A stretch of 38,847 bases of DNA, taken from positions 1 to 38,847 of the forward strand of contig JAFGLO010000014.1 in the NCBI GenBank assembly GCA_016927995.1, written 5' to 3'. Made by a program: the position numbers and the translations under genes. The notes below the pieces were generated by a model. The model saw only the letters and a list, made by a program, of their open reading frames with translations. It had not been told where the DNA came from and did no database searches. Position 1 is the first letter of the stretch; every line of letters starts with the position of its first letter. Origin of the DNA: Candidatus Dojkabacteria bacterium (GTDB lineage: Bacteria > Patescibacteriota > Dojkabacteria > JAFGLO01). This document shows positions 5,818 through 8,490 of the stretch, in pieces.

Positions 5818-6858
5818 ATGAAATTGAGCGATTTCCACGCAATAACGGTAGTCTTAAGTGGACACATTAACAAAAAGCGCTTTCTGAAAACTGTTTCGGA
5901 TAAGGCAAAAAAGCTTAATATTGTCGGATTTGCACAATTTAAACAGGATAACAGTTGCAAGATCCACGCAGAAGGTACAAAAACAGTTCTTTCCGAATTT
6001 CTTGATACATTAAACAGGCAAACAGCAGAGTTTGATCTTAATGAAGTTAATGTTTCATGGATAGACCCTTATAAAATTTATAACGACTTTAGGACGATAG
6101 ATCACCCGACATGGAATCCAACAGTTATATCCCCTTCCCCTACACATAAAACCCAAATTATCGAGCCGGTTAAGTACAAAAAAATCCCAACTCATGTTGC
6201 AATCCTTCCAATCGAGATGATTATGTGGGGAAAAGAGCTTTATAAACCCCTCACTCCATGGTTGCGACGTACCCAAAGAAGTTTTGAAACCATTATCGAG
6301 TTGTCTCAAAAGCTAAAAATCAAGTATTTGACAATATTAGAGATGCACTCATCGGTTTGGAAACTAAAGACAGATCAAATTAGAAGCCAGCTACATCTTA
6401 CGCACAGGTGGATTGAATTTATGCAACCATTCTTTAATACGTTTGGCATTAGACTAAAAGTTATCGGACGTAGAAATCGTCTTCCGACCGAGCTTTCTGC
6501 ACTTATAGCAAAGGTTGAAAAAAACACCCGCAACAATAAAAAACTTACATTTACCCTAGCAATTGACTATTCAGGGAAAAATGAGATTACCGAAGCCGTA
6601 AATGCCATAATTCAGTCTAAAATTCCTTCTGTTGACGAAAATACTCTAGATTCCTTTTTATGGACTCATGAATTACCACCTATTGACCTTGTAATTACAA
6701 ATGGCGGGGTAACAAGCCTACAGGGACACTTTTCCTGCAAAGCAGAAAATGCATCGGTTTACGTAAGCAATAAACTATTTTCCGAACTTAACACAGCTGA
6801 AATACTAAAAGCAATAGAAACATTTAATAATGATCAGAAAATTCTTTTAGGTAAATAG
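5818..6858 (+). CDS. Acylphosphatase-like / cis-prenyltransferase-like fusion, both domains without catalytic residues
   Basis: 346 residues. Residues about 6-90 align with acylphosphatase: LSGHINKKRFL aligns with the phosphate loop V-S-G-R-V-Q-G-V-G-F-R, placing Leu23 at the catalytic Arg, and GFAQF places Phe41 at the catalytic Asn. Residues about 120-345 align along their whole length with undecaprenyl diphosphate synthase: HVAILPIEMIMWGK against HVAIIMDGNGRWAK, then SSVWK, IRLKVIG, LAIDYSGKNEI and HELPPIDLVITNGG. The catalytic Asp is Ile132, the Gly-x-Arg arginine is Met136, and the R-T-G-G-E segment reads TNGGV (Thr294, Val298). The frame is intact, so this looks like a maintained pseudoenzyme and not a decaying gene. 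By analogy with the inactive NgBR/Nus1 subunit it might bind polyprenyl lipids or a partner synthase. It converges on rho with a 2-nt gap. Confidence 0.72.
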   Translation: MKLSDFHAITVVLSGHINKKRFLKTVSDKAKKLNIVGFAQFKQDNSCKIHAEGTKTVLSEFLDTLNRQTAEFDLNEVNVSWIDPYKIYNDFRTIDHPTWNPTVISPSPTHKTQIIEPVKYKKIPTHVAILPIEMIMWGKELYKPLTPWLRRTQRSFETIIELSQKLKIKYLTILEMHSSVWKLKTDQIRSQLHLTHRWIEFMQPFFNTFGIRLKVIGRRNRLPTELSALIAKVEKNTRNNKKLTFTLAIDYSGKNEITEAVNAIIQSKIPSVDENTLDSFLWTHELPPIDLVITNGGVTSLQGHFSCKAENASVYVSNKLFSELNTAEILKAIETFNNDQKILLGK

Positions 6859-6860
6859 CT

Positions 6861-8120
6861 TTACATACTACCGTCGGCAATTTTTGCCAGAAACTCTTCA
6901 TTATTCTTGGTTCTTGCAAGTTGCTCTACAAGTACTCGAGCAGGCTCCTCATCACCCTTTTCTAGCGCTTCAAGCATTCTACGAACTCTCCAAGATTGAT
7001 TAAGTAACTCACCTTTAAGCAAGAGTTCCTCGTTTCGAGTGCCCGATGCAACAACATCGATTGCAGGATAAATACGCATATTTGCAAGTTTTCTATCCAA
7101 GTGAAGTTCCATATTGCCTGTTCCTTTGAATTCTTCGTAGATGAGATCATCCATTCGACTGCCTGTATCAACAAGTGCGGTGGCAACAATTGTTAGACTT
7201 CCACCATCTTCAAAGTTACGTGCAGCACCAAAAAATCGCTTTGGCGGATAAAGGGCGGCAGGATCAAATCCACCTGAGAGTGTTTTACCTGATGTTGGCA
7301 TTACAATGTTATATGCACGAGCAAGTCGTGTTACACTATCCATAAGAATTACTACATCTTCACCCATTTCAGCAAGTCGCTTAGCTCTATCAAGTACCAT
7401 TTCTGATATTTTGGTGTGAAGGTCAGGCTTTTCGTCAAAGTTTGCGGCATAAACCTGTCCTTTAATACTTCGTTGCATATCGGTTACCTCTTCAGGCCTT
7501 TCACCAACTAAAAGTGCCATTAAAAGAACATTAGGATAATTTTTTTCAATTCCGGCAGCAATATCCTTTAGAAGCCACGTTTTACCGGCTTTAGGAGGCG
7601 AAACAACCATTGCTCGTTGTCCAAAACCTATTGGAGCCAAAAGATCAATTACACGGGTTGATAAGACGTCTTTTGTGGTCTCAAGTTTCATTTGCTTATC
7701 GGGGAAAACCGGGGTGAGCTTTTCAAACGCTGTTCTAATAACACTTTTATTAGGCTCCCTACCGTTTACGGTTTCAACCTTTAAAAGACTTAAGTATCTT
7801 TCACCTTCGTTTGGAAGCCTTGCCGGACCTTTGATTTCATCACCCGTTCGAAGGTTAAATTTTCGAATTTGGGTACCTGATATGTAAACGTCATTACTAC
7901 CGGGCAAAAGTCCTTCAGTACGCAGAACCCCATGGGTCATGTCATTCATGACCTCCAGAACTCCGGTTACAGAGATTTCACCGTCTTTTTGAGTATAAAT
8001 TCTTAGAAGTTCACTAATAAGACTTTGCCTTGCAAGCTCGGATACTCCCTTGATTCCTTCGGCTTTTGATTTGTCACGAAGATCGGGAAGTGAAAGATTT
8101 AATAGCTCTTTAATTTCCAT
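6861..8120 (-). CDS. rho: Transcription termination factor Rho
   Basis: 419 residues, the usual length, from ATG at 8120 (a GTG four codons upstream is less likely). Order: Rho-N helical domain (residues about 1-43), cold-shock-type RNA-binding domain (about 48-120; [23 protein letters not shown]), then the RecA-like hexameric ATPase. ATPase marks are Walker [19 protein letters not shown] with the catalytic Glu, Walker [17 protein letters not shown], the Q-loop region [11 protein letters not shown] and [14 protein letters not shown]. Rho loads on nascent RNA and terminates transcription. The Asp before the catalytic Glu in E. coli Rho (IDERPEE) is Gly here, and the first RNA-binding motif lacks the usual GFGF aromatics (HGVLR instead). 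Its own promoter (8211-8239) gives a leader of about 85 nt. Confidence 0.97.
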
Positions 8121-8210
8121 AAAAAACAACACTTGAATTAAATTAAGTCACCAAAGAGTTTTGCATAAAAATATGAATCAGCAGGATATTTACGTGAAAT
8201 ATACGTCTTT

Positions 8211-8239: not shown

Positions 8240-8455
8240 GAAAAAGGGGGATCGGCACTGCCCCAACCGACCCCGGCCTCGTATATCTTTCTTAAAAAAT
8301 CTACGAGGCAGATTCCGTTTAAGGAAAGTGCCAGTAAACCTACTAGAAACAGGTGATCTGATCCTAAGGCTCAGTAACGAGGGGGAACCCCGACCAAACC
8401 TTGGGAACAGATCACCTTATAAACACCTTTATCAAAGAACCTTATAGTAGATTGT
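8240..8455 (-). ncRNA. Unassigned structured RNA with its own promoter and terminator, upstream of rho
   Basis: About 215 nt with no plausible reading frame. On the minus strand a strong promoter (8461-8490) leads into nested helices. P1 pairs CTACTA (8450-8445) with TAGTAG (8345-8340). P2 is a perfect 10-bp helix AGGTGATCTG (8417-8408) / CAGATCACCT (8360-8351), continued inside by CCAAGG / CCTTAGG with one bulge. A third helix pairs CCTCGTA (8308-8302) with TACGAGG (8283-8277). GGCACT (8332-8327) can pair with AGTGCC (8259-8254), closing a branched 3' domain and overlapping the terminator stem by two bases. I looked for the hallmarks of SRP RNA, tmRNA, RNase P RNA and 6S RNA and did not find them. 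It may be a free small RNA or an attenuated leader of rho. Confidence 0.6.
8241..8274 (-). terminator. Intrinsic terminator of the structured RNA
   Basis: On the minus strand GGGGTCGG (8274-8267) pairs with CCGATCCCC (8255-8247) with one bulged base, followed at once by TTTTT (8245-8241). G+C-rich stem plus U-tract is a standard factor-independent terminator. Confidence 0.75.
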
Positions 8456-8460
8456 GATTA

Positions 8461-8490
8461 AGTATAGCACACGGGGTTCGGAATTGTCAA
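8461..8490 (-). promoter_or_regulatory. Strong promoter of the structured RNA
   Basis: Perfect -35 TTGACA (8490-8485), 18-nt spacer and an extended -10 TGC-TATACT (8469-8461) on the minus strand, with the predicted start near 8455. It is the closest match to the sigma-70 consensus in the window, suggesting a highly expressed RNA. Confidence 0.75.

Follow-up and report, generated by a model that had tools for sequence, protein, structure and literature searches.

A new structured RNA family beside rho in Patescibacteria, with a possible role in the control of Rho

Results

A complete RNA unit lies directly upstream of rho

The window, a stretch of 38,847 nucleotides from a Candidatus Dojkabacteria bacterium whose genome comprises 849 kb in 15 contigs, carries rho on the minus strand at 6861–8132. 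The gene encodes 423 aa when read from a GTG codon, although the probable start is an ATG at 8120, and its product contains the Pfam domains Rho_RNA_bind (PF07497) and ATP-synt_ab (PF00006). The closest named rho genes are those of 'bacterium isolate DTUPAT1 3-Genome6' (68%) and Candidatus Daviesbacteria (58–60%). Next to rho, on the plus strand (5818–6858), a single open reading frame encodes an undecaprenyl diphosphate synthase domain with an acylphosphatase domain fused ahead of it.

A first-pass annotation had proposed that a strongly expressed, unassigned structured RNA, complete with promoter and terminator, is encoded on the rho strand just upstream of rho. The unit is present as described. 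The RNA occupies 8241–8455 on the minus strand (~215 nt, with the 5' end estimated from the -10 box) and is preceded by a near-consensus promoter, P1 (8461–8490; 11/12), in which TTGACA (8490–8485) and TATACT (8466–8461) are separated by an 18-nt spacer and the -10 box is extended by TG. The strength of expression is inferred from this promoter only, as there are no transcript data. Downstream of P1, a boxA-like element, GTTCTTTGATAAAG (8427–8440), is followed by hairpin B (8351–8417; ~20 bp), which has the core CCCAAGGUUUGGU...ACUGAGCCUUAGG with conserved tandem U.G/G.U pairs and includes the predicted 10-bp helix, AGGTGATCTG/CAGATCACCT (8351–8360/8408–8417). The fold places a further hairpin, D (8276–8309), whose sequence is not conserved, directly 5' of hairpin E, on which it is stacked. 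Hairpin E (8247–8275; GGGGUCGG-UUGGGGCAGUG-CCGAUCCC) together with a run of five T (8245–8241) forms the G+C-rich intrinsic terminator. Its 11-nt loop (8256–8266; UUGGGGCAGUG) is our proposed recognition site. The 215-nt RNA folds at -86 kcal/mol, against a shuffled mean of -59.7 (z = -6.3), and 0 of 200 shuffles reached an energy as low. After the terminator, rho has its own promoter, P2 (8211–8239, minus strand; TTGACT-17-TATATT, 10/12), again as the annotation had it. The annotation had also noted a GGCACT/AGTGCC pairing that might allow switching. The window does contain this pairing, but of 55 class RNAs just 5, counting that of the window, share an exact counterpart (1 expected); since the pairing is not conserved, the switch is unsupported.

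The RNA is conserved and covaries across a class

A DNA search of 58 relatives showed the last ~35 nt of the RNA to be almost identical in about half of them, and the aligned loci share one order of promoter, boxA, hairpin B, hairpin D, and hairpin E. We built a covariance model (R1) from 16 sequences. It has a single match in the window's own genome (8245–8420) and finds the RNA in 80 of 86 genomes of a Patescibacteria-like class, normally at one locus per genome. Among the six class genomes without an R1 match, two (G015 and G030) retain hairpin B upstream of rho, one (G066) is cut by a contig end, and three (G023, G053, and G056) have neither rho nor the RNA, perhaps because of assembly gaps. 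Some f10 and g15 genomes likewise retain hairpin B with no recognized hairpin E.

Over 65 distinct sequences, 96.5% of cells in the model's helices are paired, with 342 two-sided changes, a level that none of 500 shuffles reached; the covariation score is 0.530 versus 0.173 for shuffled alignments. Hairpin B, with the consensus core UCCC..RGUYUGG...ACUGGRCY..GGA and its tandem U.G/G.U, contributes 22 pairs, of which 16 have two-sided changes in this set (95.4% of cells paired). A hairpin abutting E on its 5' side, in the position of D, is found in 51 of 55 relatives against 27.5 expected. A promoter equivalent to P1 scoring at least 10/12 precedes the RNA in 63 of 64 relatives, and 39 of 52 have a U run after E (at least 7 T in 12 nt); the U run is missing in f54-type genomes and in one phage contig. 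The conserved G.U pairs, together with the direction of P1, boxA, and the U run, fix the transcribed strand. The existence of the RNA family is near certain.

Several variants of the unit were seen. The whole B-D-E unit is duplicated in tandem in G083 (L166, 2462–2767), and hairpin E alone is duplicated in tandem, with a different stem, in G014 (L162, 3913–4096). In two genomes, G016 and G009 (L163, ~2912, and L164, ~325), a hairpin B stands by itself in the 5' leader of a gene for a CsoR-like repressor, downstream of which lie metal-binding or copper-transport-like genes.

The 5' element follows the boxA pattern G[AT]TC[TA]TTnAA. With up to one mismatch allowed, it occurs within 34 nt after the -10 box in 40 of 64 relatives, versus 7.1 expected in shuffles. 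The window's own 16S leader contains GCTCTTTGAAAATT, and in several of the same genomes the 16S leader starts with a match to the boxA of the RNA. The boxA of rRNA operons is a recruitment site for NusB and S10 and shields untranslated transcripts from Rho. By analogy, we infer that the boxA of the RNA may be used in the same way.

The RNA matches no curated family

Searched with Rfam, the whole window gave no match at gathering score. Within the RNA region, Rfam 15 returned a single hit at E ≤ 10, to S6-S18-Chlorobi (E = 2.6; 16.7 bits against a cutoff of 47.4), and nothing was found on the RNA at 12 related loci. The annotation's description of the RNA as unassigned therefore holds. We considered three housekeeping RNAs individually. 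6S RNA was rejected: RF00013 has no match in the window's own genome, and in RNA-bearing f3 genomes 6S RNA lies at other loci. Across 20 class genomes searched, 6S RNA scored above gathering in only two, both f3 (G009, C74:20054–20214, and G016, C19:6182–6341). SRP RNA was rejected as well, as no domain IV sequence is seen in the RNA. Neither RF00169 nor RF01854 matched any of the 20 class genomes, the window's own included, so the SRP RNA of this class may just escape these models; it is either very divergent or absent. For tmRNA, RF00023 has no match on the RNA, and in f8 genomes tmRNA is a separate neighboring gene. We found no earlier description of the RNA in the open-licence literature. 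We regard it as a new RNA family, matching no curated one, whose mechanism is so far only inferred.

The terminator loop is invariant and tied to rho across the phylum

In the class, the loop of hairpin E is invariant (nnGGGGCAGUG). In other classes, only an E-like hairpin is found upstream of rho, with wholly different stems and the same GGGCAGU loop core. A model of E alone (R2; 97.2% of cells paired, 37 two-sided changes, loop core invariant) has a covariation score of 0.884 versus 0.236 shuffled. When 380 genomes of the phylum were searched with R2, 28 matches outside the class were confident (E < 1e-3); 27 of them lie directly upstream of rho, and for the remaining one the contig stops short of the next gene. 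No confident hairpin E was found away from rho outside the class in these 380 genomes, and at 79 rho loci from other lineages and phyla R2 matches did not exceed chance. Pattern matches in G119, G357, G302, and G373 and weak R2 matches in G144, G212, G217, and G232 have no adjacent rho and were treated as chance. In a sample of 116 phylum genomes, rho was detected at E ≤ 1e-30 in only 27, and 89 showed none; on this sample, most of the phylum appears to be without Rho. Because the signature loop is confidently found only in rho-bearing genomes, the RNA probably helps to control Rho.

The form of the element varies outside the class. In five families (f54, f72, f87, f103, and f132), E sits between the upstream gene and rho without P1 and without a U run. 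Four others (f24, f30, f44, and f46) have E-only units with a promoter directly before E, so that a boxA would hardly fit. In several rho-bearing families (f18, f22, f56, and f67) no E is seen.

The RNA persists where rho has moved away

Within the class, 71 of 80 genomes have the RNA immediately before rho and on the rho strand, often with radA preceding the RNA, and a promoter scoring at least 10/12 lies between E and rho in 39 of 46 relatives (shuffled mean 8.4). One rho match (G085, C15:8716–9969) contains one in-frame TAG, which may be a sequencing error, the mark of a pseudogene, or a case of recoding. Eight genomes, six of family f4 and two of f8, retain the RNA away from rho. The three f4 genomes that we read closely have the gene order clpC-RNA-rplJ-rplL; in one of the three, G010, rho is found beyond rplK-rplA and on the other strand, an arrangement like that left by an inversion with a breakpoint between the RNA and rho, and B, E, and the U run are preserved. 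In the two f8 genomes the RNA adjoins tmRNA, far from rho. With these eight genomes, the expectation for a rho leader attenuator, that it always stand in cis upstream of rho, is not met. Since rho has its own P2 and the RNA stands apart from rho in f4 and f8, the sequences favor the view that in this class the RNA is an autonomous gene and not merely a leader. The element may have started as a cis-acting one that turned into a gene in this class, or evolution may have run the other way.

Two phage contigs carry the element

We found the element in two IMG/VR phage contigs of 43–45 kb, L310 and L309. In L310 (2570–2296), P1, a boxA-like sequence, B, D, and E lie upstream of a replication initiation gene, beside RecT/RecE-like genes. 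In L309 (10525–10840), D-E lies upstream of RecE/RecT-like genes, with a boxA-like GCTCTTTATACA ~280 nt upstream of E; this contig also encodes a terminase small subunit and RusA. After E, L310 has no U run and L309 has a weak one. When viral contigs were scanned with looser patterns, the matches were at chance level and were told apart by stem checks and R2, and one form of hairpin B sought in viral contigs gave two matches, both chance. As just two contigs were found, we treat the phage occurrence as a lead only; the copies fit either an anti-Rho RNA or a nut-like site. The phage copies, the invariant loop, the tie to rho across classes, and the RNA apart from rho all go beyond the first-pass annotation, whose proposed check by conservation and covariation in relatives came out in its favor.

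Discussion

Our leading interpretation, held tentatively, is that the RNA is a new Rho-linked regulatory RNA acting in trans on Rho or its termination machinery. This is an inference, and no binding partner has been shown. We suggest that the gene, which we call Rho-linked RNA, would present hairpin E as a loop to be recognized by Rho itself, or by a Nus or RNA polymerase factor that works with Rho, and so hold Rho activity in check. Its boxA might let this untranslated RNA escape Rho during its own synthesis, its location beside rho might balance RNA and Rho, and in phages the element might protect early transcription from host Rho. Support for a trans role comes from the presence of the RNA in most of the class, its covariation, the near-constant P1, the boxA shared with 16S leaders, the separate P2 of rho, the retention of the RNA away from rho, the tie of E to rho across the phylum with no E at rho loci of other phyla, and the two phage contigs. 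Against it, nothing shows Rho binding the RNA, and the promoterless E without a U run between the upstream gene and rho in f54, f72, f87, f103, and f132 looks cis-acting. The same-strand position upstream of rho in many families also fits control in cis, and the trans reading must further contend with hairpin B lacking a recognized E (f10 and g15) and with the rho-bearing families that lack E. A bolder version, in which the E loop is a direct Rho ligand and the RNA a stand-alone natural anti-Rho gene, acting in trans in much of rho-bearing Patescibacteria and adopted by phages for early transcription, we regard as doubtful.

Ranked second is a cis-regulatory leader, a possibility that we cannot call likely. 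In this view, transcription from P1 would terminate at E, and binding of a ligand or protein to B or to the E loop would let it continue into rho, a feedback on rho expression. The adjacency to rho on the same strand in 71 of 80 genomes suits such a leader, as does E directly upstream of rho in other classes, including E without its own promoter. It is harder to reconcile with P2 just after E, with an RNA that stays intact where rho has moved away (f4 and f8), and with an alternative pairing that is not conserved.

Third, and less likely again, E could be part of a nut- or put-like antitermination site, at which boxA plus a hairpin with a recognized loop makes RNA polymerase resist Rho or downstream terminators in cis. 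The boxA that this requires is present well above expectation and recurs in 16S leaders; the phage copies lie near replication and RecE/RecT genes, one of them with no U run after E; and hairpin B occurs alone in the leader of a csoR-like operon. In the class, however, E is usually a terminator with a U run followed by a new rho promoter, and the E-only units of f24, f30, f44, and f46 leave little room for boxA.

We think it improbable that the RNA is a base-pairing small RNA whose exposed 11-nt loop pairs with mRNAs and whose adjacency to rho is historical. An invariant exposed loop, a promoter and terminator of its own, and persistence away from rho would all suit a small RNA. Yet confident loops are confined to rho-bearing genomes, which is not expected of a general small RNA, and the loop is fixed across classes while the stems vary, so any mRNA target would also need to stay fixed. 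A complement of the E loop was found in 0 of 40 rho mRNAs, which argues against simple antisense control of rho. An 8-nt complement in 16S rRNA was found in the window's own 16S only and is absent from the others, and pairing with 16S rRNA was rejected.

Two further explanations rank lowest. That the element is nothing more than a conserved strong terminator or insulator between neighboring genes is very improbable: E is an intrinsic terminator in many genomes, but termination alone would not require an unchanging loop, f54 genomes and one phage contig retain the loop with no U run after it, and hairpin B and P1 go unexplained. A highly divergent housekeeping RNA, such as the missing SRP RNA, is hardly credible, for all its ubiquity in the class and the failure of both SRP RNA models there, given the absence of SRP domain IV sequence, the reduction of the unit to one short hairpin in other classes, and its coexistence with 6S RNA (G009 and G016) and tmRNA (G007 and G014).

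How does the Rho-linked RNA compare with known systems? Model bacteria control Rho through proteins and through a few RNA elements that lie within mRNAs. In the lambda nut site, boxA is followed by a single short hairpin, boxB, and the site is located in cis to the genes that it serves. Like nut and the rRNA leader boxA, the Rho-linked RNA carries a boxA close to where the transcript begins and, after it, a hairpin whose loop is conserved, and it shares with them a connection to phages and Rho biology; unlike nut, it has a 20-bp hairpin, a terminator hairpin, and a separate rho promoter. 6S RNA is similarly non-coding, of similar length, and has its own promoter, but does not match and lies at other loci in f3 genomes that carry the Rho-linked RNA. 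In Salmonella, the mgtCBR leader contains a Rho-antagonizing RNA element (RARE), which reportedly locks Rho into a state defective in termination (PMC7858274). Both are RNAs linked to the Rho pathway, and RNA-based control of Rho is what we propose here, but RARE is part of an mRNA leader, whereas the Rho-linked RNA appears to be an autonomous gene with its own promoter and no binding shown. The dfn-type leader hairpin of natural-product operons has a UNCG tetraloop and is bound by LoaP, a NusG paralog (PMC12691694). It too is a short hairpin with a fixed loop found in leaders, and is bound by a transcription factor; it differs in its tetraloop and in serving natural-product operons and not rho. 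In function, the Rho-linked RNA is closest to RARE, nut sites, and the LoaP hairpin, none of which is close to it in sequence or architecture.

If our interpretation is true, termination would be controlled in a new way, by a dedicated RNA gene that is normally single-locus, is tied to rho in different classes of the candidate phyla, and is apparently also present in phages. The fixed 11-nt loop makes its partner directly testable. The small gene set of bacteria that are known almost only from sequence would also gain a nearly universal RNA.
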